A DNA stretch of 33,273 nt from an uncultured Bacteroidota bacterium (lineage in GTDB: Bacteria > Bacteroidota > Bacteroidia > Bacteroidales > GWA2-32-17). Positions 1,595 to 30,400 of the stretch are shown here, one piece after another. The first letter of the stretch is position 1, and every line of letters begins with the position of its first letter. The notes under the pieces are model-generated. The model was not told the DNA's origin. It saw nothing but the letters and a program-made list of their open reading frames with translations, and made no database searches. Made by a program: the position numbers and the translations under genes. The stretch covers positions 1-33,273 of the forward strand of contig CAILUD010000229.1 of the NCBI GenBank assembly GCA_903837285.1. Direction: 5' to 3'.

Positions 1595-3580
1595 TTATTC
1601 AACAATCATTTTCTTGGTTACTTTTTGTGTACCAATTGTTACAGTATAGAAATAAATTCCACTTTCTAAATTAGCTGTATTTAAATTAATGCTATAACTA
1701 CCAGAAGCCAAACGTCCTTTATTTACAACAGAAATTGATTGACCAACCATATTTGTTATTTCTACAGAAACATTAGATGCCTCGGTAAGCGTAACTTTAA
1801 AACTTGTTGTTCCATTTGCAGGGTTTGGATAGTTTTGTGATACATTAAATATTTCTTCAACTTTTGAAGAAATTGAGGTAGACCGAGGAAATGATTCAGT
1901 ATACTCAGTATCATCAAAAGTAATCTCTGGTGCAAAATATATTACTTGAGACCCATCACCATTCAAACCACCATCACCTGCTACATCAATATAGGCTAAA
2001 GGCACATAAAATGTATTTCCTTGTTTTGCAACAATATCAGTTGTGTTTACAAAATAATATAAGCCACCATCAATAGGGTTTACAAAATCCTTTGAAAGTG
2101 TGGCCATATTGCTTAGAACATTCCATGCACGACCCTTAATATAAGGAATAATATTATCAGTACTGAAAGAAGGGTCTGTATCTGTCCATATAAAGAAAAT
2201 AGTAGCACCGTCTTCGCTGCGAGAAACATTTATACAATGTTCCCATCCTAAATTTCCGGTTGCTGAAACGATAGATGCTACATTAGTCTCGAGCACATTT
2301 GCAGAAAAAATCTTATCGATAAAACGAATATCCCAGGAATTTGTGGCTGCGGAATAAATAACATCAAATAAATACGTTGGATGATTAGAATATGAATAAC
2401 CTGACGAATCAATTATTCCATTTGGATCAACATAATTAGAGAAATATCCTTCTATTATTGCTGCCATATGTAAGTCGCCATTAGCATCTACAACACCAGG
2501 CATATTTTTTTCATCTAGAGAAGAGCCAGCTCTGAAAAACGGTTTGTATTGAAGCGGACCTCCACTGGTTTGAGAAGCCATGGTTGGCCAGATAGAATCA
2601 GTTAAATTAGATAGATTATTAAAATAATTACACGGTTCAATTGCAGTATATGTTTGTCCACCATCGGTAGTTCTAAAAATCTGAGGCAATTGTGAACCAT
2701 TATAATATTTATGAAGGGAATCAATTCCGGTACAGAAAGCATAACCGTTAATACCATCTGTTGCCCAAGCATGATTCCAGTTAAAATTAGCATCAACAAT
2801 ACCATTTGAAAAAACTCGTTTTCCCCATAATTTTGTTATCTGAGTTTGTGTTAATGACCAATCAAAAGAACTTGATCCTGAATTAAAAGCTCCTTTTCTA
2901 ACTTTAACAAATGGCAAATTTTCGGTACCATCATTATCCTGCGAAAGAATATAATAATTTCCATTACCACCTGAAAGGTTTATTCTTTCTAATGTTAATA
3001 AAATTGGATCCATTGGAATATAATTAGTATCAATTAATGTTTTATCTAATTTTTGAGAACAAAAATAGTTATGTGACCACATTGTACTAGTAGCAGAAGG
3101 ACCACAGATTACTGCAAAAGCATTTGTTGCTAATGTGTTACCAACTGGGTTATAAATAATTCCACCTGGATATCTTGGAAATTGTATTCCGTCGCTAGGA
3201 AATACGACTGAATCAATAGCGGAATTAAACCAGTCTGTTGAATATTTACATATAATATCATTACCACTTCCTCCCCATAAACCACCTGCACGATGTGTAA
3301 ACATAACGGTATTTGTAGCGGCATTAAAATCTAGCCAGTTTTGCGAAGCAGTAAGAAATCCATAAATATTCGTTGAACTTCCTATCATTATGCTTGTTAT
3401 TGCTTTTTTTTGAGCGCCATGTGGTTTTAATACGGGTAAAAATGGAATGTCTACATCAACAGTATTTTTAACTGTCGCTTTTTTAGAAAAATTTTTATTG
3501 TTGCAAGATGTATACTTGCTTTGAGCAATTGCACTAATAGTAAATGTAATTGCAATAAATAATAATAAATGTTTTTTCAT
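1595..3580 (-). CDS. Secreted T9SS protein, tandem paralogue 1 (661 aa)
   Basis: The protein starts with a signal peptide (hydrophobic core at about 4-18, probable cut after AIAQ at residue 20). It ends with a T9SS type A sorting domain over about the last 83 residues: YPNPANGTT, then SGIYFYTV, then a KKMIVE end. The 550 residues between look like an exported beta-propeller. There are short repeated strand motifs, including an Asp-box-like RTTDGGQTY near residue 307 and WTDTDPSF near 470, as in BNR/sialidase-type folds. No catalytic set is recognised, so no enzyme is claimed. The neighbour at 4125-6122 is its paralogue, similar along the full length and with a near-identical 3' end. The ATG at 3580 is chosen because the signal peptide starts there. 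Substrate and role are unknown. Confidence 0.85.
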   Translation of the reverse strand: MKKHLLLFIAITFTISAIAQSKYTSCNNKNFSKKATVKNTVDVDIPFLPVLKPHGAQKKAITSIMIGSSTNIYGFLTASQNWLDFNAATNTVMFTHRAGGLWGGSGNDIICKYSTDWFNSAIDSVVFPSDGIQFPRYPGGIIYNPVGNTLATNAFAVICGPSATSTMWSHNYFCSQKLDKTLIDTNYIPMDPILLTLERINLSGGNGNYYILSQDNDGTENLPFVKVRKGAFNSGSSSFDWSLTQTQITKLWGKRVFSNGIVDANFNWNHAWATDGINGYAFCTGIDSLHKYYNGSQLPQIFRTTDGGQTYTAIEPCNYFNNLSNLTDSIWPTMASQTSGGPLQYKPFFRAGSSLDEKNMPGVVDANGDLHMAAIIEGYFSNYVDPNGIIDSSGYSYSNHPTYLFDVIYSAATNSWDIRFIDKIFSANVLETNVASIVSATGNLGWEHCINVSRSEDGATIFFIWTDTDPSFSTDNIIPYIKGRAWNVLSNMATLSKDFVNPIDGGLYYFVNTTDIVAKQGNTFYVPLAYIDVAGDGGLNGDGSQVIYFAPEITFDDTEYTESFPRSTSISSKVEEIFNVSQNYPNPANGTTSFKVTLTEASNVSVEITNMVGQSISVVNKGRLASGSYSINLNTANLESGIYFYTVTIGTQKVTKKMIVE

Positions 3581-4124: not shown

Positions 4125-6122
4125 TTATTCAACAATCATTTTCTTGGTTACTTTTTGTGTACCAACTGTTACAGTATAGAAATAAATTCCACTGTTTAAG
4201 TTAGCGATGTTTAAGTTAATAGCATAGCTACCAGCAGCAATGTGACCTTTATTTACTAAAGATACTGATTGACCAACCATGTTTGTTATTTCAACAGAAA
4301 CATTTGATGCTTCGGCTAAAGTAACTTTTATGCCTGTTGTTCCATTTGCTGGGTTAGGATAGTTTTGTGATACATTAAATGAATTAGCTTCTTTTGTATC
4401 AACACCAGTCATGCAAATTGAAGCTTGAATTGTAGCTACATCTGAAGGACCACATGGATCAATAAATTCAGATTCTGCAAAAGTTATATTATCTGCAAAA
4501 TATACAATTTGTGCTACATCACCACTATTACCAGCATCACCAGCTATGTCAATAAAAGTCAAAGCAACAGAATATGTAGATCCTTGTTTTGCTGCAATAT
4601 CAGCTGTATTTACATAATAATACAAACCACCATTAGGTGCTGTAAAATTCTTTGAAGGTGTAGCCATATTAGAAACTACATTCCATGCACGACCTTTAAT
4701 ATCTGGAACAATATTATCAAGACTCATAGAAGGATCTGTATCAGTCCATGTATAGAAAACAACAGTACCATCAGGACTCTTGGATACATTAATCCAATGT
4801 TCCCAACCCATATTTCCTGATGAAGAGATTACAGCTGCACCGTTATCATCAGCTACGTTTAAAGCAAAAATCTGGTCAATAAAACGAACATCCCAAAAAT
4901 CAGCAGATGCATCATAAATTACATCAAAAAGAAATGTTGGATGAGTTTGATATGAATAATCTAATGAATCTACATGATATGAAGAAAAACCTACAACAAT
5001 AGCAGCCATATGTAAATCGCCATTAACATCAACCACACCTGGAAGTGTATTATCATCTACAGAAGAACCTGCTTGAAAAAACGGTCTGAATTCAAGTGGA
5101 CCAGAACCAGCTGCAGAAAGAGCTGTAGGCCAGATTGAGTCAGTTAAGTTAGTTAACTTATCAAAACAAGCAAAAGGTGCAATTGCGCCATAAGTTAAAC
5201 CGCCATCCCAAGTTCTCCAGATTAGAGGAACCTGTGTTCCACTATAAACTTTATTAAGAGAGTCAATACCTGTACAGAATGCGTATCCATCAAGACCATT
5301 AGTAGCCCAAGCATGATTCCATGCATAATTTGCATCAGAAGCACCATTAGAGAAAAGACGTTTACCCCATAATCTTGAAATTTGAGTTGGAGTTAATGAC
5401 CAATCAAAAGCACTTGTTGTTGTATTAAATACACCTTTTCTAACTTTTACATATGGCAAATAGTTAGTTCCGTCATCATCCTGTGACATAACAAAAAGAT
5501 TACCATTTCCACCGGATAAATTAGTTCTTTCTAAAGCTGTTTCAGGAGCAACTATCGGATTGTAGAAATTAGTTAAAAGAGTTTTATCTAATTTTTGTGT
5601 GTGGAAAAAATTATCTGTCCAACCCGATCCACCAGTTACAGGACCTACTACTACTGCATAAGCATTTGTTGCAGTTGTGTTTCCAGCTGGGTTATAAATA
5701 ACACCACTTGGGTAACGATGTAATTGTGTTCCGTTTGTAGGAAATACAACAGAGTCGATAACTGATGCAAACCAATCTGTAGAAAATTTGCAACGGATAT
5801 CGCCACTGCTTCCACCCCATGCTCCACCAGCACGATGTGTAAACATAACAGCGTTAGTTGCTGGATCATAATCAACCCAATTTTGACCTGCTGTAAGATA
5901 TCCAAAAACATTTGCAGATGTTCCAACAATAACAGAGGTAACATCTTTTGTGTGTGCACCATGAGGTTTCATCACAGGAAGAAAAGGCACAACTACATCG
6001 TCAACAGTTGTAACATTTGCTTTTTTCATAAGCATGTTATTGTTGCTAGTAGCAAATTTGTTTTGAGCAACAGCACCTATCGTGATACCGATTGCCAGAG
6101 AAAAAAGTAGTAATCTTTTCAT
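4125..6122 (-). CDS. Secreted T9SS protein, tandem paralogue 2 (665 aa)
   Basis: This has the same architecture as the 1595-3580 protein: a signal peptide (core LLLFSLAIGITIGAVA, probable cut after AQ), a beta-propeller-like body with WRTWDGGLTY and YTWTDTDPSM motifs, and a type A T9SS sorting domain at the C-terminus (YPNPANGTT, SGIYFYTV, KKMIVE). It differs just before the sorting domain, where about 30 residues with two or three cysteines (IDPCGPSDV, SICMTGV) replace the Ser-rich linker of paralogue 1. A complete promoter lies 44 bases upstream. The two genes point the same way, with this one upstream, but a terminator and a 544-base gap separate them, so they are probably separate transcripts. 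No catalytic residues are recognised; the role is unknown. Confidence 0.85.
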   Translation of the reverse strand: MKRLLLFSLAIGITIGAVAQNKFATSNNNMLMKKANVTTVDDVVVPFLPVMKPHGAHTKDVTSVIVGTSANVFGYLTAGQNWVDYDPATNAVMFTHRAGGAWGGSSGDIRCKFSTDWFASVIDSVVFPTNGTQLHRYPSGVIYNPAGNTTATNAYAVVVGPVTGGSGWTDNFFHTQKLDKTLLTNFYNPIVAPETALERTNLSGGNGNLFVMSQDDDGTNYLPYVKVRKGVFNTTTSAFDWSLTPTQISRLWGKRLFSNGASDANYAWNHAWATNGLDGYAFCTGIDSLNKVYSGTQVPLIWRTWDGGLTYGAIAPFACFDKLTNLTDSIWPTALSAAGSGPLEFRPFFQAGSSVDDNTLPGVVDVNGDLHMAAIVVGFSSYHVDSLDYSYQTHPTFLFDVIYDASADFWDVRFIDQIFALNVADDNGAAVISSSGNMGWEHWINVSKSPDGTVVFYTWTDTDPSMSLDNIVPDIKGRAWNVVSNMATPSKNFTAPNGGLYYYVNTADIAAKQGSTYSVALTFIDIAGDAGNSGDVAQIVYFADNITFAESEFIDPCGPSDVATIQASICMTGVDTKEANSFNVSQNYPNPANGTTGIKVTLAEASNVSVEITNMVGQSVSLVNKGHIAAGSYAINLNIANLNSGIYFYTVTVGTQKVTKKMIVE

Positions 6123-7659: not shown

Positions 7660-10179
7660 CTATTTCTCGATTCTCATTTTGTAGAATGATCTCCAAACAA
7701 AAATTAAAGCGATAGCAAAGAATCCTAAACCAAAATAAGAAGCAAAGTCTCTAAAACTTGGTGAAATTGCGATTTCCATTGCTAATAAACCAAATAATGT
7801 AGTAAACTTAATAATTGGATTTAATGCAACTGATGAAGTATCTTTAAATGGATCACCTACTGTATCACCAACAACTGATGCATCATGTAATGGAGTTCCT
7901 TTTTCTTTTAAATCAACTTCAATAACTTTTTTAGCATTATCCCAACAACCACCAGCGTTAGCCATGAAAATTGCCTGGAATAAACCAAAAACTGCAATAG
8001 AAATTAAATAACCAATAAATAAAGAAATTGGTTGAGAATATTTTACGACTAAAGCCTGTGCTGCAGAAAGTTCCGCACCTTGTAAAGTTTTAAGACTTTC
8101 AACTAATTCAGTTGATAATCCTTTAGGTGCAGCAAAACAAGCAAATGCTAATGCAAAGAAGAAAATACCAATAAAGATATTAAACATACCTTTTTGTGCA
8201 TATTGTGTACAAATTTTAACTACTTCGATAGATTTTGCAGTATCAGCTTTTTTAGGAGCGTTAGGATCAAGGTTGATGTTTTTCTTAATATATTCAACAG
8301 CTCTGTATGCACCTGTTGTTACAGCCTGCATAGAAGCACCTGTAAACCAATAGATAACACAACCACCAAGAATAAAACCAAGAATTGTATAAGGATTTAA
8401 TAGGTTAAGAATAAGCTCAGGAGTTACACCAGTTGATTTACTAATCATTAAAATTAATGAGAAAATCATTGTTGTAGCACCAACAACAGCAGTACCAATT
8501 AATACTGGTTTTGCAGTTGCTTTAAATGTATTACCCGCACCATCATTAGCCTCAAGATAATGTTTAGATTTTACCCAATCAGGTTTAAAACCAAATTCTT
8601 TTTCAATTTCAGCAGATGCTTTTTCTTTATCATCTTCGATTAAAGAAAGTTCGTAAACTGATTGTGCGTTATCTGTAACTGGACCATAACTATCAACAGC
8701 GATAGTAACAGGGCCCATACCTAATAAACCAAATGCAACCAAGCCAAAAGCAAAAACTGAAGGATAAATCATTAATGTATCTAATCCGAATGTACTTGCA
8801 AAATATGCAACAAACATTAAAACGAAGAATACAAGACCAGTCCAAATTGCGGAGAAATTACCAGCAACAAGACCAGAAAGAATAACTAATGAAGCACCAC
8901 CTTCGCGACCAGCAGCAACAACTTCTTTCACGTGAGCTGATTTAGGAGAAGTAAACATTTTAGTAAATTCAGGAATTAAAGCACCACCGATAGTTCCACA
9001 ACTAATAATAGTTGAAAGTATCCACCACATATCCGTATTTCCATTTAAGTTAGGAATTAGAACATACGATGCAGCAAATGTTACGATAATAGAAAGTATA
9101 GAAGTAATCCAAACCAAGCTTGTAAGTGGAGCTTCGAAATCTAAATCTTCTTTTCCTTTATATTTTGCATTGCTAAGAATTCCATTAATATAGAAAGCAA
9201 CTATAGAAGTAATAATCATAAGTATGCGCATTACAAATATCCATACTAATAATTCTACTTTTAAAGTAGAAGTGATTGCATCAGTCATACCTAAAGCAGC
9301 ACCACCAACAGCTAATAAAATAAAAGAGATTAATGCAACACCTGTTACACCATAAGTTTCAAAACCATCAGCAGTTGGTCCAACTGAGTCGCCAGCATTG
9401 TCGCCAGTACAGTCAGCAATAACACCAGGGTTACGTGGATCATCTTCACCAATTTTGAAAACAACTTTCATTAGGTCAGAACCAATGTCAGCGATTTTTG
9501 TAAAAATACCACCTGCAATACGAAGTGCAGAAGCACCTAAAGATTCACCAATTGCAAAACCAATAAAACAAGCACCAGCTAATTCACCTGGCATAAATAA
9601 TAAGATAACTAGCATCAACATTAATTCAACGCAAATTAAAACAACTCCAATGCTCATTCCAGCATCTAATGGAATATGTAAAAGTTTTAATGGGTCTTTT
9701 CTTAATGAAGCAAAAGCCATACGGGCGTTAGCTAAAGTATTCATTCTAATACCAAATGCAGCAACTGCATATGATCCTAAAATACCAATAACAGTCCAGC
9801 CAATAATTAAAGCTACTGAACCAAATCTAGCAGCAGCAGTTTCTCCGATTGGAGATAAAAAACCAAAGTAACCAGCAACAGCAGCTCCAATAAATAAGAA
9901 AAGAATTGCTAAAAATTTACCTTGCTGAATTAAATAAGCTCTACAAGTTTGGTAAATAACTTCTGCAATTTCTAACATTGATTTGTGTGCAGGAAGTTTT
10001 TTTACTTTCATGAATTGATATAATCCAAAAAGTAATCCTAAAATTGTTACCACAAAACCATAATAAAGGATGCTTTGTCCCTTTATTTCTTCTGGTATTT
10101 TTAAATCGGCTTCACTCGCCATGGATAGAATTGGGGCGAAAATTGCCACCATAAGTGCTAAAATGCCTCTTCTTTTCAT
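7660..10179 (-). CDS. hppA: Membrane-bound ion-translocating pyrophosphatase
   Basis: 839 residues. The enzyme hydrolyses cytosolic pyrophosphate and pumps H+ and/or Na+ across the inner membrane. About 16 hydrophobic segments are visible, preceded by a signal-peptide-like N-terminus (1-22). Hallmark motifs are DDPRNPGVIADCTGDNAGD (246-264), GPVTDNAQ (499-506), GDGAGN-type segment NDGAGNTFKATAK (545-557), GGCWDNAKK (743-751) and GDTVGDPFKDTS (771-782), all acidic or lysine residues of the PPi-Mg site. The residue known to set potassium dependence (Ala in K+-dependent enzymes, GNTTAA) is Lys553 here (GNTFKA), which in the family goes with K+-independence; this is inference. It is somewhat longer than the usual 660-800. 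It is a single gene with its own promoter and terminator. The ion pumped cannot be decided by eye. Confidence 0.95.
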   Translation of the reverse strand: MKRRGILALMVAIFAPILSMASEADLKIPEEIKGQSILYYGFVVTILGLLFGLYQFMKVKKLPAHKSMLEIAEVIYQTCRAYLIQQGKFLAILFLFIGAAVAGYFGFLSPIGETAAARFGSVALIIGWTVIGILGSYAVAAFGIRMNTLANARMAFASLRKDPLKLLHIPLDAGMSIGVVLICVELMLMLVILLFMPGELAGACFIGFAIGESLGASALRIAGGIFTKIADIGSDLMKVVFKIGEDDPRNPGVIADCTGDNAGDSVGPTADGFETYGVTGVALISFILLAVGGAALGMTDAITSTLKVELLVWIFVMRILMIITSIVAFYINGILSNAKYKGKEDLDFEAPLTSLVWITSILSIIVTFAASYVLIPNLNGNTDMWWILSTIISCGTIGGALIPEFTKMFTSPKSAHVKEVVAAGREGGASLVILSGLVAGNFSAIWTGLVFFVLMFVAYFASTFGLDTLMIYPSVFAFGLVAFGLLGMGPVTIAVDSYGPVTDNAQSVYELSLIEDDKEKASAEIEKEFGFKPDWVKSKHYLEANDGAGNTFKATAKPVLIGTAVVGATTMIFSLILMISKSTGVTPELILNLLNPYTILGFILGGCVIYWFTGASMQAVTTGAYRAVEYIKKNINLDPNAPKKADTAKSIEVVKICTQYAQKGMFNIFIGIFFFALAFACFAAPKGLSTELVESLKTLQGAELSAAQALVVKYSQPISLFIGYLISIAVFGLFQAIFMANAGGCWDNAKKVIEVDLKEKGTPLHDASVVGDTVGDPFKDTSSVALNPIIKFTTLFGLLAMEIAISPSFRDFASYFGLGFFAIALIFVWRSFYKMRIEK

Positions 10180-10420: not shown

Positions 10421-11182
10421 TTAAAACAACTCTACAACAACCGGGCAATGGTCTGAATGAACAGCTTCTTGTAAAATACCAGCTGATTTTAAATTTGCTC
10501 TTAATTTCTCACTTACAAAATTATAATCTATTCTCCAGCCAAGATTTTTCATTCTTGAATTTTGTCTATAACTCCACCAACTATATTGGTCATGTTCCTG
10601 ATTAAATTCTCTGAATGTATCGATTAATCCAAGCTCTAAAAATGATGTCAGCCATTCGCGTTCTTCGGGTAGAAATCCCGACATTCCATTATGCTTTTCG
10701 GGATGATTAATATCTATTGGTTTATGACAAATATTAAAATCGCCTGAGATAATTAGTGATGGTCTTGTTTTTAAAAGTTCCTTAATATAATGGTAAAATG
10801 CATCTAAAAAATCCATTTTAAAAGCCTGACGAATATCGCCCATGGAACCAGATGGAACATAAACAGAAATTTGTGTTAAATCACCAAAATCGGCACGAAT
10901 TACTCTACCCTCACTATCAAATAACTCATTACCTATACCTATAACAACATTATCAGATTTTTGTTTCGATAAAAGTGCAACACCGCTATAACCCTTTTTT
11001 TGAGCACTATTCCAAATTGGATTATAACCCATTTCTATAAACTTATTTACATCAAATTGATCAGTAGTTGCTTTTAACTCCTGAAAACAAAGAATATCGC
11101 ATTTCGATTCAGTAATCCAATCTAGCAATCCTCTCGTCATTGATGCTCTTATTCCGTTTACATTGTATGAAAATACTTTCAT
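10421..11182 (-). CDS. xth: Exodeoxyribonuclease III (AP endonuclease, ExoIII family)
   Basis: 253 residues, a usual length for the ExoIII/ExoA family. It cuts DNA 5' to abasic sites and degrades 3' ends in base excision repair in the cytoplasm. The EEP fold motifs are in order: YNVNGIRA with Asn7, CFQELKA with Glu35, SVYVPSG with Tyr108, SGDFN with Asp148 and Asn150, WRIDYNF with Asp219, and SDHCPV with His245 at the end. All residues known to bind metal or act in catalysis in this family are present. It stands alone on the minus strand, upstream of the pyrophosphatase gene, which has its own promoter, and divergent from the ferredoxin-ATPase operon. No convincing terminator follows; an AGTTGTTTT/AAAACAACT palindrome spans the stop codon. 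Confidence 0.95.
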
Positions 11183-11424: not shown

Positions 11425-12249
11425 ATGATAGTTTCAATAATAGGTACAAGAGGAGGTATTGGGTCAACAACATTGTTGTCAAATCTTTTTACGCATGTAA
11501 AAAAAAATGAAACATCTCATGGCTGGTTATCACTTACAAGTCCATTTCCACCATTATTTGCAGGAAGTTCTACAAATTGGAAAAAAGTATTTTCTTTTAA
11601 AAGATATATTCCACAATGGAACAACGAAAAATGCACATACTGCAATGAATGTGTTTCTATTTGTGTAAACAATGCAATTTCTCCTTTACCTAATGGCTAT
11701 AACATATATAGTGAATTATGCAATTCCTGTAAAACCTGTATTAGTGCATGTAAAAGCGATGCAATAAAATTTGAATTAACCGATGTTGGGTTTATAGAGA
11801 TATCTAATGATACAAATTTTAACTTACACAGATTAAATTTAAACGAAAAAGAAATTATTTCTACATGGCACATAAAAGAAATATTTACTTTTTTAAGAGC
11901 TTATAAAGACCAAAACTCAACTTTTTTTATAGATATTCCATCAGGACTTCACGAATATTGGGAAGAAATTTTAAAGCTTTCCAGCTCAGTAATTATTTAT
12001 TCTGACGACCCTTTTACCTCTGATTTAATATACAAATCGCACTCTCCTAGACAGGCTAAATTAATTCTGGCAATTACACAAAATTCAAAAGCTGAATTCG
12101 AAAAAGCAGGTTATTCATTTGCTATTCCAATCCCTAAAAATAAAATAATTGCTTTTGATTCTATTCAAGGAAAAACAGTAACCGATATAGATTTTAATGC
12201 TGCTATTTTGAATTTGAAAAAAATAATACTTGAAAAAATTCCGTCATGA
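11425..12249 (+). CDS. MinD-like ATPase with two ferredoxin motifs, degenerate Walker A
   Basis: 274 residues, of the MinD-superfamily type with an inserted ferredoxin domain (COG1149-like). The N-terminal P-loop reads GTRGGIGSTT (7-16). In the family the motif is KGGxGK[TS], so the signature lysine is Arg9 and the catalytic lysine is Ser14. Two CxxCxxCxxxC motifs follow, C70/73/76/80 and C99/102/105/109, each able to hold a [4Fe-4S] cluster. A Walker B-like strand TFFIDIPSG lies at 167-174. There are no membrane segments, so it is cytoplasmic. Its stop overlaps the start of the next gene (ATGA), which encodes the intact partner, so the two are probably translationally coupled and form a pair. 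The target is unknown; relatives are linked to iron-sulfur or redox assembly. Frame and cysteines are sound, so it is not a pseudogene. Confidence 0.88.
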   Translation: MIVSIIGTRGGIGSTTLLSNLFTHVKKNETSHGWLSLTSPFPPLFAGSSTNWKKVFSFKRYIPQWNNEKCTYCNECVSICVNNAISPLPNGYNIYSELCNSCKTCISACKSDAIKFELTDVGFIEISNDTNFNLHRLNLNEKEIISTWHIKEIFTFLRAYKDQNSTFFIDIPSGLHEYWEEILKLSSSVIIYSDDPFTSDLIYKSHSPRQAKLILAITQNSKAEFEKAGYSFAIPIPKNKIIAFDSIQGKTVTDIDFNAAILNLKKIILEKIPS

Positions 12250-13031
12250 AAGAAGTATTACTTATATCAGACAAGGGCGGAACCGGTAAATCTTCGGTAC
12301 TTAATTCATTAAAAGAAATTTACGGCAAAGAAGCTATGTTTGCAGATTGCTCTTTTACATCAAGATATAACAATTTGCCTATATATTTAGAAGAAACATT
12401 TAATTCAAGATTTATATGTGCTATTAATAATAATATTTGTTTGTGTTGTGGAGATTGCGATACAATTTGCGAATTTAATGCACTTGTATTTAGTACCGAA
12501 GAAATAAAACTAGACCGCCACAAATGCACTGGTTGCGGACATTGCGTATATACTTGCCCATCAGGTGCCACAGAATTAAAGAAAATTCATTCCGGAAAAA
12601 TTATTATTTCTAAAGACGACAACAGTATTTTTATTTTCGGCATACTTCAGCATTTTAAACAAGATGGAACAAGACCTGTATATATTATTAGGAACAAAGC
12701 TTACGAAATAGCAACTGAAAATAAAAGGAAAATACTTGTAATAGAATCATCTCCTGGCTGGGATAGGCACACACGTTCACTAGCGCTTTATTCTACCATT
12801 ATTGTTCCGGTTATTGAGCCCCATGCTTTTGTTTTTGATTTTTTAGAAAAAGTGCGTAATTATACAGATCAGAATGGAACAGAAGTTAAGCTTATTGTTA
12901 CGAAATCTGACGCAAATCCAGCAATAACAACACGAATAATAAAGGAGTATCCCAATTGGGATATTAAATGTATACCGTGGAAAAACGACTTAAATATTAA
13001 AGAAAAAAATAATTTTGAAAATTTTTTATAA
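12246..13031 (+). CDS. MinD-like ATPase with two ferredoxin motifs, intact Walker A
   Basis: 261 residues. The deviant Walker A SDKGGTGKSS (8-17) keeps both lysines (Lys10, Lys15). Two CxxCxxCxxxC motifs follow, C65/68/71/75 and C94/97/100/104. A Walker B-like strand ILVIESSPG lies at 163-171, and a switch-like VPVIEPHAF at 187-195 resembles the MinD/Mrp pattern of a conserved Pro-x-Glu. The family uses ATP to drive or gate electron transfer or cluster transfer; the exact partner is not known. It overlaps the upstream gene by four bases and is followed one base after its stop by the next ATG, so the three genes are an operon. It is the likely active subunit of a heterodimer with the preceding protein. 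Confidence 0.9.
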   Translation: MKEVLLISDKGGTGKSSVLNSLKEIYGKEAMFADCSFTSRYNNLPIYLEETFNSRFICAINNNICLCCGDCDTICEFNALVFSTEEIKLDRHKCTGCGHCVYTCPSGATELKKIHSGKIIISKDDNSIFIFGILQHFKQDGTRPVYIIRNKAYEIATENKRKILVIESSPGWDRHTRSLALYSTIIVPVIEPHAFVFDFLEKVRNYTDQNGTEVKLIVTKSDANPAITTRIIKEYPNWDIKCIPWKNDLNIKEKNNFENFL

Positions 13032-13032
13032 A

Positions 13033-14433
13033 ATGGAACACGAAATTCTTTCATCTGAAAATAAAGCTTTAAAAATAAATTTAAACCCTCAAATTTTTGG
13101 AACTATAGCCGAAATTGGTGGTGGACAAGAAGTTGCCCGCGAATTTTTTAGGGCTGGTGGAGCCTCAAAAACGATTGCAAAATCAATTTCTGCTTACGAC
13201 AAAAACTTTAGCGATGCTTTATATAAATCAAAGTCGGGAAGGTATGTTTCGGAGATCAGACTTAAAAAAATGCTCGATACAGAGTATGCTGAAATAACAA
13301 AAATACTTACCAAAACAAGAGGCGAAAATTCTACCTTTTTTGCTTTTGCCAATACTGTTGAAACAATAAATTACAGAAAAGATAATCAGGGGCATGGCTG
13401 GTTAGGAATTAGATTTCAACTTACACCGTTAGCGGAACCAAATGAAATTATTTTACACACTATACTGCACGAAAACGACACCATACTGCAACAAAGAACA
13501 TTAAGTACTCTTGGAATAAATTTAATATTTGCATGTTATTATTTAAGTAATAATATTGATGATTTACTAATCTCATTACTTGATAATTTATCAAACGATA
13601 GGCTAGAAATTAACATGATTAGTATTTCGGGTCCTGATTTTGAACATTGTGATAACAGATTAGTGAGTGTAAAGCTTGTAAAACACGGCTTAACTTCCGT
13701 TAGTATTTTTGATAGATATGGGAAAGTACAGCAACCGGGCGATATGCTTTACAATAAAGACGTAATGGTTTTAAGAGGAAGTTTTAGACCTGTTACCTAT
13801 ATTGAATTAGATATGTTAAAATCTGGTTACGCTTTATTTAAAAAAGAAGTCAATTTTAATACCGAAACAAGTGTTGTGCTGTGCGAAATGACTCTTAATA
13901 ATTTGCTTGAAGAAGGCGAGTTTCACGAAAAAGATTTTCTTGATAGAGTTGACCTACTTAATGGTATGGGGCAAAATGTTATGATCTCGAATTTTAAAGA
14001 ATTTTACCGTCTTTCGGCATATTTTTCGCAATTTAACATTATTCAGCTACGACTAATAATGGGAGCAGATACACTTAGAAAAGTTATTGAAGAAAAATAC
14101 TATACTAACTTAAAAGGTGGTATACTAGAGGCATTTGGAAGATTATTTGGCAAACATGTAAAGCTGTATATTTATCCGTTTAAAGATAAAAAAGAAAATC
14201 CATTTTTAAATTCAAAAAATATAGAGATTGAATCGCATTTAAAATTGCTTTTTAATTATCTTTTATATAATGAAATGATTATTGATATAAACACTCATAA
14301 TTCTAAAAAGCTTTATATTTCTAATCGACTAGTAAGTAAAATGATAAAAGAAGGGACGCCTAACTGGGAAGAAATGGTTCCAAAATATATAAGTGAAAAC
14401 ATTATAAAAAAGGGATTGTTTGGGTATAAATAA
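13033..14433 (+). CDS. Conserved cytoplasmic protein of unknown function (466 aa)
   Basis: I take the ATG at 13033, one base after the preceding stop; a TTG at 13015 would add six residues overlapping the upstream gene. There is no signal peptide or membrane segment. The N-terminal third contains stretches that I remember from proteins found in several bacterial phyla: NPQIFGTIAEIGGGQEVAR near the start, SAYDKNFSDALY, FFAFANTV, GHGWLGIRFQ. Some database entries for this family carry unrelated names (for example a nicotinate-nucleotide adenylyltransferase label), and no such motif is visible here. The centre has a GSFRPVTY segment and EKDFLDRVDLLNGMGQNVMIS; the C-terminal part has a GGILEAFGRLFG motif. 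As third gene of the ferredoxin-ATPase operon it is a candidate client or partner. Function unknown. Confidence 0.85.
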   Translation: MEHEILSSENKALKINLNPQIFGTIAEIGGGQEVAREFFRAGGASKTIAKSISAYDKNFSDALYKSKSGRYVSEIRLKKMLDTEYAEITKILTKTRGENSTFFAFANTVETINYRKDNQGHGWLGIRFQLTPLAEPNEIILHTILHENDTILQQRTLSTLGINLIFACYYLSNNIDDLLISLLDNLSNDRLEINMISISGPDFEHCDNRLVSVKLVKHGLTSVSIFDRYGKVQQPGDMLYNKDVMVLRGSFRPVTYIELDMLKSGYALFKKEVNFNTETSVVLCEMTLNNLLEEGEFHEKDFLDRVDLLNGMGQNVMISNFKEFYRLSAYFSQFNIIQLRLIMGADTLRKVIEEKYYTNLKGGILEAFGRLFGKHVKLYIYPFKDKKENPFLNSKNIEIESHLKLLFNYLLYNEMIIDINTHNSKKLYISNRLVSKMIKEGTPNWEEMVPKYISENIIKKGLFGYK

Positions 14434-24435: not shown

Positions 24436-27400
24436 TTACCTAACCACCGTCACAGGCCCAACATACTCATGATATAAACCATTTACATCTTTCATTTTTA
24501 CAACCCAAGTATAGGTTCCAATTGGTACTATCTCGCCTTTGTTTTTGTACCTTCCATTCCAGCCACCATCTATCTCGGTAACACTTTCGGTGCCTGTAGG
24601 ATAAACAGTGGTCTCAAAAACAACCTGACCCCATCTATCATAAATACCTAAATAATAATTATTAGGATCGAAGCCCATTCCTTTTGGATAGAAGAAATTA
24701 TTATTTAAACCAGCATTTGGAGTAAAAGCTGATGGTGCATAAAATGTATGCTCATCTCGTATTATTAATGGAAGACTAGCTGTATCCATACAACCATTTA
24801 ATCCTCTAACAACAAGTATTACATTAAATGTATCTGCATAAGCATATTCATGCTGGGGGTTAGTAACAGATGCGTTTCCGCCATCTCCAAAACTCCAGCT
24901 CCATGATGTTGCATACGAAGACTGATCGTAAAAATGAATATTTGCATCAAACAAACCAACTTCAGTTGGGTACATATAAAAACTTGCAATAGGACTTGGA
25001 GTAACAACAACAAGATTTGGATAATTACTTACAAGCTGACAACCATACTGTGTTGTTAAAGTTAAACCTACATTATAACTTCCTACGGTTTCATACAAAT
25101 GAGTTGGAACTGTTTCACCAGATACATTACTCAATCCGGAAGAAGGATCTCCAAAGCTCCACACATACGATACAGAGTCTGTAGAGCTAACTACATTATT
25201 AAATGTTACGACTAAAGGATTGCAACCTGTTGCAGTAAGAGGAGGAGCTACAACAGAAGGTAAAGGATGAACAGTTATTACTAATGTATCATTATCTGTT
25301 GGTGAATTACAAAGATCGTTTACCGTAACAATATACGTAGTAGTAGATAATGGCGATACCTCATTTGGATTTCCACTGCCAATATTCCAATTATATAAAT
25401 AAGGACCACCATTGCCACCAGTTGTTGATGGTATTATTGAGTAAGTCTGGCCCTGACAAATATTAACATCAGCGGGAAGTGTTACATTTAAAGGTGGATT
25501 TACATAAACGATTACATTTCCTGGCACTGCTGAAGTGCAACCATGAGAGTCGGTTGCCGTTACGGTGTAATTTGTTGTGGTTAATGGATTAACTGTATAA
25601 GATTGTGAAGCTCCTCCACCATTCCACTGATAAGTATATCCAGGGGTTCCGCCATTGGCACTTGCAGATATTGTTATAGACTGACCTATACATATAGAAT
25701 CTGAACCGTTTGCAAAAACAACAACTGGGGTTGGTTGGTTTACTATTATAGGAGGAGTAATAATTTGACATCCATTTGAATCATATATTGAAACAACATA
25801 GGTTCCTGCCATTAAATTTGAAGAAATCGAATCAGGTCCTCCATAAGGTGACCACATATAATTAAATGGAGATAAACCATAATTAATATGAACCTGAATT
25901 TTACCATCACTAGAGCCATAACAACTTGTATTAGTAACATTAACACTCACTAGCTCTGGCATAGGCATTTCAGAAACCAAAATAGTTGTGTCTGCAAGAC
26001 AGTTATGTGAATCTATAATTGTTAACAAATGAATACCAGGTGCTAAATTATCAGCAGTTGGTAAAACACTTCCAGATGGGCTCCAATCATATGTGTAAGA
26101 TGGCGTGCCACCACTTACAGAAGCAAAAGCAAAACCATTGTCAATATTACACCTAGCAGGACTAGAAGTAGTCTGTATAACAATAGGACTTGGTTCTGAT
26201 ATATTAAAACTTGCTTGAGCAGTACATCCATTAATATCTGTAACAATTACAGTATAAGAATAATCCGCGGATAAATTTGCTGCTGTAGCTGTAGTTCCAC
26301 CATATGGCATCCAATTATAACTATATCCAGGTGTTCCACCCGTTTGTGTCGCTGTAATACTTCCATCACTTCCTCCATTACAATTCACAGCGATAGTTGT
26401 ACCTGTTGCCTGAACTTGGGTTGGTTGATTTATAACTGTATTTGCCATAGCAGTACACCCATTTGCATCTGTTACCATCACTGATACAAAACCGGCACAC
26501 AGACCTGAAGCATTCTGTGTAGTTTGGTTTAAAGGGTCTGACCAGATGTATGAATATGGAGGAGTTCCACCCACTGCTAATGGATTTGCACTTCCATTAC
26601 AACTTCCATAACATAATGTCGAAGAAGAAGCATTAATTATTGCATTCATTTGCTGTGGCTGAGCAATTACAGCATTTCCAGAAACCGTACAACCATTTGC
26701 ATCAGTAACTACAACAAAATAATTGCCTGCTGTTAAACCTATAGCTGTATTTGTTGACTGAACTGCAGGATCTGACCATTGCACAATATTTGTTGCTGTT
26801 GTACTTGTATAAGTTACGGTTGCTGTACCATTATTGCCTCCATTACAACTAACATTTGTTACAGCAATATTTGTAATTAAAGGTGCTAAGTTATTGTTAA
26901 CATTTACTGTTATAGTTGCAGTACAATTGTTCGCATCACTTACAGTTACTGTATAAGCACCAGCAATTACGTTGTTAATGGCACTACTACTGCTTACGTT
27001 TGGAGTCCATGTGTAAGAATAAATTGAACCTGTGCCACCACTTACTGCTACAGTTGCAGAGCCATTTGGTTGACCACAATCCGCATCTACCACACCTGTT
27101 ACAACAACTTGCAATGAAGGAGGTCCGGATATTGTAGCAGATGATATAATCGAACAACCATGAGAATCTGTTACGGTTACAGTATATGAACCTACACATA
27201 AATTATTAATATTGGCTGTATTCTGAGCATTAGTCCAAGCATATTGATAAGGTCCAGTACCACCAGTAATTGATGGACTTATAGAACCATTACATGCATT
27301 ATAACAACTCTCATTTATTGGAGATAATGCTACAGATAAAATTGGAGGTTCAGTTAAAGTAACCTGTGAAGTTGTTGTACATCCATTTAAATCAGCAACA

Positions 27401-30400
27401 GTAACACTATACACACCAGCAATTAAATTGCTTATTGATGGTGTTACCTGACTATTACTCCAACTAAAAGTATATCCTGGAGTACCACCAGAAGGAACTA
27501 CTTGTACAGACCCATTATTGCCACCAAAACAACTAATATTAGTTGGGTTACTTATTGATGAAACAAGCACTGTAGGCTGTGTTATTGTAACGTTAGAAGT
27601 TTGCAAACAACCATTTAAATCATACACAGAAACTGTATAAGCCCCTGCACACAATCCTGTAGCTGATTGAGTTGTTTGTGCCGACAAGCCACTCCATAAA
27701 TATGTATATGGAGGGATCCCACCTGAAGGAGTTGCTGTTGCAGTTCCATTACACGCAGCATTACAAAGAACAGGAGTTGAAGTCATTGCTATTGTTACAA
27801 ATGGTGGTTGTACCACATTAACAATATTTGAAGAGGTACACAAATTAGCGTCAGTAACTATTACAGTATAACTTCCTGCACACAATGAGTCTGCCGTTGC
27901 AAAATGATCGTTATTTGTCCAGTTATAAATATAAGGTGTAGTACCTCCAGCAACTAATACTGTTGCTGTTCCGTTACATAAGTTATTACATGAAGGTGCA
28001 ACAAATGAAGCATTAGACACCAATAATAAAGGTTCAGTAATAACAACGTTTGCAATAGCATTACAGTTATGAATATCGGTAACAGTTACAGAATGCGTAC
28101 CTACGCATAATGCGGTACCAGTCTGACTGGATTGTGCATTATCCCATAAGTATGTATATGGCGAAGTACCACCTGAACCCACTACTGTAGCAACACCATT
28201 ACACTGACCAAAACAAGAAACGTTTGTTGAAGAGGATATTGTTGCTGTTGGACCTGAAATATTATTTACAGCAAAAGTACCTGTGCCAGTGCATCCTTTA
28301 AAATCGGTTACGGTTACGGTATAACTTCCTGCAGGAATACCTGTTAAACTCTGAGTGTTTCCAGAATTTGACCAAATATATGTAAATGGTGCTGCACCAT
28401 TTGTTATAGTAAGTGTTAAGGCTCCATCTGATTGATTGCAATGAGCATCTAATGCTACTGCTGATGTAGTAATTTGAGGTGGTTGAGTAACCGTACCAGT
28501 TGCTACTATTGTACAAGCATTCGCATCTCTTATAGTTACAGAATATGTCCCCATACATAAAGAGGTTGCATTCTGATTTGTTTGTAAAGTTGGGTCATTC
28601 CACTGATACGTATATGGAGAAGTACCACCAATTACTGAGGTATTAAGAATACCGTCACAACCACCGTAACAAGTTGGACTAATTGGAGTCATTGTATTTA
28701 CCAAAACTGCTGGCTGAGTTATTGTTACAGAGGTTGTTAACATACACCCATTTACGTCTGTTGCAGATACAGAATATACTCCGGCACAAAGACCTGTAGC
28801 TGTTGCTAATATTTGACCATTTGACCATAAATATGTGAAAGGAGCTGCACCACCGCCAACTGAAACAGTTGCTGATCCGTTACATAAACCATTACATGTA
28901 ACATTTGTTTGTGAAGAAATACTTGCAATGCCTGGAGCTATATTTAAAACATTAACAGAACCAGTTGCGCTACAACCATTATTATCAGTAACGGTTATTG
29001 TATATAAACCAGCAGACAAACCTGTTGTTGTTGCCGATGTTGTTGTTACACCACCACTCCAATTATAAATATAGCCACCTGTTACTGTTCCGCCAGAAGC
29101 TACAACTGTTGCTGTTCCATTTGCCTGTCCACAGTTTTCACTCACAGATGAAGTAACAAGACTTAAAGGAGTTGGTTGAGTTATTGTTACAAAAGCCGTT
29201 ACTGTGCATAGATTTGCATCAGTAACAGTTACTGTATAATTACCTGCGCCAAAACCAACATTTGAAGCTAAGGTTGCCGATGTTCCACCATTCCATAAAT
29301 ATGTATATGTTGGCGAACCACCTCCTGCTGTTACTGTAGCTGTTCCGTTTGTTCCACCGCTACAGCTTACGTTTGTGCTTCCTGTAATGGCTGCAGTTAA
29401 TACTGTTGGTTGTGTAATTGTTACAGTATTTGTTATTGAACAACTATTTGCATCACTTATGGTAACAGTATAAATTCCAGCTATTACATTTGCTAAATCT
29501 TGGGTTAATGCACCATTTGACCAAATGTAAGTATATACTGGGGTTCCTCCAGAAACTGTTAAATCAGCACTTCCGTTTGAAGAACCATTACAAAGGGTTG
29601 CAGTGCCCACAACAGTTGATGTTACAACGGTTGGTTGTAAAATTGTAACACTAGCTACTGAAATACATCCGTTATTATCAGTTACGGTCACTAAGTGATT
29701 TCCGGCATTTAAATTCGATGCGGTAGCTGTTGTTATTCCATTATCCCAAAGATATGAAACTGCTCCTGGCATTGCAGCTGTAGCGGTCCCGTTTGAACCA
29801 CCAAAACAGCCCACTGGGCCACTTGCAGATATTAAAGCAATACCTCCAGCCAAATTATTAACTACTACAGAACTAATAACCGAACAACTATTTGCGTCAA
29901 ATACAGTAACTGTATAGGTTGCTGCCAATAATCCTGTTGCGGTTAATGTTGTTTGACTATTTGACCAAGTTGTTGTATATACAGGAGTTCCACCTGCAGG
30001 TACAACGGTTGCAGTACCATCTGGCTGACCGCAATGTGCGGCTACTGAAGACGTAGTTGCAGTTACAGCTGTTGGCTGAATAATATTTATACTGGCAACT
30101 GCTGTACAGAACATAGCATCTGTAACAGTTACTGAATAAGTACCTGCTGCAATACCTGTTAAATCTTCTGAAGTAGCTGTTGTTGTCCAGCTGTATGTAA
30201 ATGGTGATGTACCACCTAAAACAGTTAGATCTGCCGCTCCTGTTAATAGTCCATTACATAGAATATTTGTTCCAACAATATTTGCTGTAAGCAGCACTGG
30301 TTGAGTCATTGTTACTGTAGATACTGAAGTACATAAATTTACATCAGATACAGTAACTGACCAACTGCCATTTGTTAAAGTTGTTGCTGTTGAAGTTGTT

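Follow-up and report, generated by a model that had tools for sequence, protein, structure and literature searches.

We found that the window, by which we mean the whole 33,273-nucleotide stretch analysed (one contig of a 4.29-Mb genome), carries two overlapping genes, A and B, encoding a lopsided pair of MinD-like ferredoxin proteins, and that the finding is more general than the window alone, since remodelling of both subunits was confirmed across a Bacteroidales family. The pair is best explained as having arisen, specifically in this family, from the ordinary tandem pair of MinD-like ferredoxin ATPases found in Bacteroidales. With moderate confidence, we propose that it constitutes a specialised, probably heterodimeric, cluster module in which an ATP-dead A is joined to a nucleotide-binding B whose hydrolysis is weak or absent.

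Gene A (11425..12249; all features of A and B are on the + strand) is an open reading frame of 274 aa for a putative MinD-like pseudo-ATPase with an inserted eight-cysteine (2x[4Fe-4S]-type) ferredoxin stretch. Gene B (12246..13031), an open reading frame of 261 aa, encodes a MinD-like protein that also has an inserted eight-cysteine ferredoxin stretch and keeps its Walker A. The genes overlap by four bases (ATGA), and in both proteins two CX2CX2CX3C motifs lie between the N-terminal P-loop region and the remaining MinD-like frame. The degenerate Walker A of A, TRGGIGSTT (residues 8-16, 11446..11472), stands in the context GTRGGIGSTT versus SDKGGTGKSS in B, where residues 9-17 read DKGGTGKSS and both sequence and alignment place an intact deviant Walker A, KGGTGKS, at residues 10-16 (12273..12293). 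The eight cluster cysteines are residues 70, 73, 76, 80, 99, 102, 105, and 109 of A (11632..11751) and residues 65, 68, 71, 75, 94, 97, 100, and 104 of B (12438..12557). An earlier note on this DNA had described two overlapping genes with two four-cysteine motifs each, which the reading frames and the four-base overlap confirmed; its reading of TRGGIGSTT with all eight cysteines in A and KGGTGKSS in B was correct to the letter.

A profile of A, searched against 10 genomes of the window's Bacteroidales family, recovered the pair in eight. The two genomes without it are 74% and 88% complete, and the eight pair-bearing genomes are divided equally between two genera, g1 and g2, with four in each. 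In all eight, A and B were tandem and co-directional, each with two four-cysteine motifs (one cysteine is shifted in the A of genome G008), and the junction was an overlap or a 3-base gap, as expected for a stoichiometric pair. The named genome collection yielded five family loci, all from metagenome-assembled Bacteroidales/Bacteroidetes and including GWA2_32_17, together with three further, weak matches confined to the ferredoxin part. Outside the family, scoring the six best candidates per genome, we found no relative of the divergent A among 393 Bacteroidales genomes, where the six family members drawn matched at E ≤ 9.2e-118 and the best other match was 1.8e-26. The same scoring found none among 395 genomes drawn from the phylum (a sample that includes one family member, the window's own genome), in which the nearest match from outside the family was 1.1e-22.

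Across the eight orthologues, the A motif read R/N/K-GGIG-S/V/I: RGGIGS in all four pair-bearing g1 genomes, and NGGIGV, NGGIGI, NGGIGV, and KGGIGI in g2. The claim that A has lost both lysines was right for the window, and right for the P-loop lysine in all eight orthologues; the signature lysine is absent from seven and is retained by G008 A, in which the P-loop lysine is gone too. These counts suggest that the P-loop lysine was the first to go. The P-loop glycines (GG-G) were retained while the lysines were lost. Elsewhere in the site, both switch I aspartate columns were Ser/Thr in all eight orthologues, the cysteine after switch II (GCP/SCP) was replaced by glutamate in all eight, the stretch with the asparagine that usually reads the adenine was deleted in all eight by alignment, and the Walker B aspartate was present in six. 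Because the P-loop lysine, both switch I aspartates, and the adenine-side asparagine stretch are gone, A is predicted to be unable to handle ATP in the usual way.

The cysteines of A fared differently from the other conserved residues. Seven of the cysteine columns were kept in all eight orthologues and the eighth in seven, the exception being G008 (locus L048), where one cysteine has moved by a residue to give CxCx3Cx3C. We compared the eight orthologues at the 49 columns with a conservation of 95% or more among 36 ordinary A proteins (8 cysteine and 41 other columns); these proteins, like the 34 ordinary B proteins used below, were chosen by a pattern with GKGGTGK, and their P-loop columns are thus conserved by choice. 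Seven of the eight cysteine columns were fully kept, compared with eight of the 41 other near-invariant columns (Fisher p = 0.0005). The change in A is a selective loss in which the cluster cysteines were spared, rather than decay. Pfam searches gave Fer4 matches for the window's A. Neither of the window's two proteins had a CbiA/ParA match at E ≤ 1, with only the insignificant AAA_16 (E 0.21) and RsgA_GTPase (E 0.021) in their place for B, whereas four ordinary proteins, two A and two B, scored against CbiA at E 8.3e-22 to 1.9e-12.

In B, KGGTGK[ST] was retained in all eight orthologues, which are 33-89% identical to the window's B, and all eight cysteine columns were kept in every one of them. 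Measured against the 48 conserved columns of the 34 ordinary B proteins, the first switch I aspartate was kept in eight of eight, and the second (D36 of ordinary B) was changed to Ser/Thr in eight of eight; in the window, alignment with ordinary B shows D34-C35-S36 (12345..12353) replacing DxD. The Walker B aspartate, present in all 34 ordinary B proteins, was glutamate in all eight divergent ones, and in the window's B it aligns with Glu167 (12744..12746; ESSPGW versus DGPPGIGC at the Walker B/switch II position). All eight had also lost the GCP cysteine (Arg in seven, Lys in one), and the SGKLV motif of ordinary B had given way to xxRP and then V, M, or I. Divergent B is shorter (median 264 versus 291 aa in ordinary B), with roughly 20-25 residues lost, mostly from the C terminus. 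The adenine-side asparagine was Thr in three of the eight, and the K-x-D aspartate was kept in seven and was Asn in one; owing to these changes, the nucleotide choice or affinity of B may have been altered.

The second switch I aspartate is the hydrolysis residue in MinD, Soj, and NifH. Since this aspartate, which usually activates the water, is replaced, B likely binds nucleotide but hydrolyses it poorly or not at all. Hydrolysis could nonetheless survive a Ser/Thr at switch I together with a glutamate at Walker B, where glutamate can serve for aspartate. The contrast that the earlier note drew between the two subunits needs correcting for B, in which the second switch I aspartate, the Walker B aspartate, and the GCP cysteine are replaced in every orthologue. 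Judged by its residues, B is not an intact ATPase, and the pair is better seen as two remodelled subunits than as a dead one beside a live one.

Ordinary tandem pairs of Bacteroidales share with the window's pair the A-then-B order, the inserted 2x(CX2CX2CX3C) stretch, and the MinD-type frame; in contrast, they have both lysines in both proteins, a DxD switch I, and a cysteine after switch II. Both lysines were kept in 76 of 76 ordinary proteins outside the family (39 A and 37 B from 39 genomes), which agrees with the statement in the earlier note that tandem pairs usually keep both P-loops. The 76 proteins were selected by two four-cysteine motifs, length, and position, independently of the P-loop, from 42 outside loci (L012-L027, L052-L075, L146, and L147), with the weak ferredoxin-only loci L028-L033 excluded; 82 rows minus six repeat fetches of the same genes (L056, L066, and L067) gave the final number. 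Among the 393 Bacteroidales genomes, 130 from outside the family gave a match, and the proteins cover part of these. One ordinary B (L070, genome G330) read SGKNGTGKT, with Asn for one P-loop glycine and both lysines kept. Within the family, ordinary-A and ordinary-B profiles did not find an ordinary pair in the 10 genomes (one of which is 74% complete), and matches other than the pair itself were no stronger than E 7.4e-12 and were confined to the ferredoxin part or to the first ~48 residues. With none found, a coexisting ordinary pair that releases A from selection was rejected, and a local error in one assembly was rejected on the concordance of eight genomes.

The AlphaFold model of A (pLDDT 78.8, pTM 0.78) was least certain in the ferredoxin stretch (pLDDT about 60). 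Its top Foldseek match was MinD (3r9j; E 8.7e-6, TM 0.52), and comparison with 4v02_A (VIA) gave a Z of 16.0 over 204 aligned residues with an rmsd of 3.6. Because the predicted fold is MinD-type, we call A a putative pseudo-ATPase rather than merely a ferredoxin. When compared with solved structures by sequence, A had its best stretches in or around the ferredoxin part (among the best 60 of 87 matches), and ordinary B gave both MinD-type and ferredoxin-part matches. In a quick tree built with every second ordinary sequence (18 of 36 A and 17 of 34 B), the divergent A and the divergent B proteins each formed one group with a support of 100, the former on the ordinary-A side and the latter within the ordinary-B side. 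The branches leading to them are very long (4.8 changes per column for A and 2.9 for B), and the program flags possible mutual attraction. With branches of this length, the tree lends weak support to an origin of each divergent protein from its ordinary counterpart.

The gene neighbourhood of the family pair also differs from that of ordinary pairs. By tblastn, the 20 ordinary loci (10.7-15 kb) had NifX-like genes in 17, DUF134 genes in 16, DUF89 genes in five, peroxiredoxin genes in four, and an ExoIII-type gene in none, whereas none of the first four was found in the eight family loci (12.3-33.3 kb, although L045 has only ~1.1 kb before A) and the ExoIII-type gene was present in all eight; blastp on called reading frames gives slightly different counts. 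An ORP-like partner set was rejected, as it was absent beside the pair in all eight loci and PF02579 was found anywhere in the genome in only four of the eight pair-bearing genomes. In the window, the divergent neighbour of A is an endonuclease/exonuclease/phosphatase-family protein of 253 aa (10421..11182, − strand; PF03372, E 1.4e-26), which from its sequence we take to be ExoIII-type. The gene is head-to-head with A in all eight family genomes, with an intergenic gap of 20-242 bases. The third co-directional gene (13033..14433, + strand) is an open reading frame for a conserved 466-aa protein that matched nothing in Pfam or NCBIfam at E ≤ 0.001. It is an optional neighbour, lying directly downstream of B in five of the eight pair-bearing genomes and not found anywhere in the other three. 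It occurred in 22 of 99 genomes, two of this family and 20 of 97 Bacteroidales outside it. Being widespread without the pair, and with an AlphaFold model of mean pLDDT 44.0, it was rejected as a functional clue.

Known MinD-related cluster carriers provide partial likenesses to the pair. Cfd1-Nbp35 and the other Mrp/NBP35 cluster carriers are MinD-related dimers with [4Fe-4S] clusters, of which Nbp35-Cfd1 is a natural heterodimer, and these ATPases are not known to have an inserted ferredoxin stretch. They resemble the window's pair in being MinD-related and in carrying [4Fe-4S] clusters and differ from it in this stretch. A further difference is their CXXC motif, which, with a deviant Walker A, defines the class (PMC6345978). 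The same paper describes Orp3 and Orp4 (DVU2103/DVU2104) of the Desulfovibrio vulgaris ORP complex, which have two [4Fe-4S] ferredoxin motifs each and co-purify together with Orp8, a Di-Nase (NifX-type) protein. An Mrp-type carrier can supply them with clusters in vitro, and they are reported to have a MinD-like C-terminal amphipathic helix (PMC6345978). As two similar proteins with two motifs each, Orp3 and Orp4 are a physical precedent for a paired complex. The window-type pair differs from them in having no adjacent NifX-like/DUF134 gene (0 of 8 loci), and, with regard to the C-terminal helix, divergent B is C-terminally shorter than ordinary B. In the open-licence literature searched, titles and the starts of abstracts yielded no report of a lopsided pair of this kind.

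In MinD-type dimers, two ATPs are held at the interface, and each signature lysine reaches across. By analogy with the ORP complex, the likeliest arrangement of A and B is a heterodimer that carries four [4Fe-4S]-type clusters. A would bring its predicted MinD fold and two kept cluster motifs, with normal ATP handling lost, and B would bring the residues that hold the nucleotide, namely both lysines, the first switch I aspartate, and, in seven of eight orthologues, K-x-D. As the A site appears to be gone, at most one nucleotide site would be left in the dimer, in B, and A would present Arg, Asn, or Lys to it; the arginine at the signature position in g1 (or the lysine in G008) could touch the nucleotide bound in B. 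The B site would be a switch or clamp that works through binding and hydrolyses barely or not at all, and the unit would be a cluster or electron carrier whose partner is no longer the NifX-like/DUF134 set. We infer the heterodimer, its cluster loading, its nucleotide state, and the transfer of electrons or clusters from these features. Going further, and only tentatively, we suggest that a MinD-type redox or cluster machine once driven by ATP has become a non-cycling heterodimer, with one dead and one binding-only site, that serves as a fixed clamp for a new client.

Because B also shows losses, the main rival to a binding-only switch in B is complete ATP independence. The P-loop of B would then be structural only, and both proteins would be relics, polyferredoxin-like carriers on a MinD-shaped frame. 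The absence from B of the second switch I aspartate, the Walker B aspartate, the GCP cysteine, and roughly 20-25 residues fits such a scaffold, as does the lack of a CbiA/ParA match in the window's A or B. However, KGGTGK is unchanged in all eight B proteins at identities down to 33%, which argues for a selected nucleotide site, and the first switch I aspartate and, with one exception, the K-x-D aspartate were kept as well; we consider full ATP independence unlikely. A different asymmetry would leave B alone hydrolysing ATP through Glu167 and the neighbouring Ser/Thr, with the arginine of A acting in trans in g1. The two lysines of B, the fixation of arginine at the signature position of A in the four pair-bearing g1 genomes, and the lysine kept in G008 are in its favour, but asparagine at this position in three of four g2 genomes breaks any general trans-arginine rule, and no divergent B has the second switch I aspartate. 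We regard this hydrolysing pair as rather improbable and prefer a B that holds nucleotide with little or no turnover.

The neighbourhood raises the further idea that the pair now works in DNA repair alongside the ExoIII-type gene, to which it might, for instance, donate electrons or clusters. The head-to-head arrangement in eight genomes of two genera, which none of the 20 ordinary loci has, would be explained in this way. Yet the neighbourhood belongs to one bacterial family, synteny in a small family can be simply inherited, the distance between the two genes is variable (20-242 bases), and ExoIII-type enzymes are not known to be iron-sulfur proteins, so that we give recruitment to repair little credence. 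Simple decay, with A on its way out and persisting by chance, could account for the many residues conserved in ordinary A that have been lost and for an identity of only 32-39% between the genera (window versus g2 genomes). It is largely refuted by the open A frame of 267-274 aa in all eight pair-bearing genomes, by the 43 columns invariant among the eight family sequences, by the selective keeping of the cysteines, and by the substitution rates. In close pairs, NG86 dN/dS for A and B, respectively, was 0.099 and 0.107 (G000-G001), 0.150 and 0.158 (G000-G004), and 0.099 and 0.054 (G005-G009), showing that both genes are under purifying selection; in distant pairs it rose to 0.88 for A and 0.55 for B, where dS is saturated and the values are unreliable and evidence neither way. 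The earlier note had preferred specialisation to simple loss, with close relatives that have a normal P-loop in the first gene, and random decay elsewhere in its sequence, as the sign of the latter. This was not seen, all eight A motifs being degenerate at a dN/dS of ~0.1 in the closest pairs, and the conserved losses and kept cluster cysteines uphold the view that A is maintained as part of a MinD-like ferredoxin pair and has a putatively dead nucleotide site.

The reach of these results is one Bacteroidales family, in which the five named records are all metagenome-assembled. If the pair is indeed a non-cycling clamp with four clusters in line, nature would have uncoupled nucleotide binding from hydrolysis in this class of proteins. 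In the ordinary pairs examined, both ATP sites are intact, and the role of ATP for the clusters is hard to tell. Comparing ordinary with lopsided pairs could reveal what ATP does for the clusters, because the latter have kept their cluster cysteines but retain neither the first ATP site nor the residues for hydrolysis in the second.

Several other genes of the window, all on the − strand, were recorded in passing. A membrane pyrophosphatase (7660-10179; PF03030) is 89-96% identical among three relatives. Two neighbouring proteins (1595-3580 and 4125-6122) both have type IX secretion sorting tails and match the same protein in a relative, perhaps as a result of tandem duplication. A 2881-aa protein (24436-33081) has SprB repeats, PKD domains, and a CHU_C type IX secretion signal.
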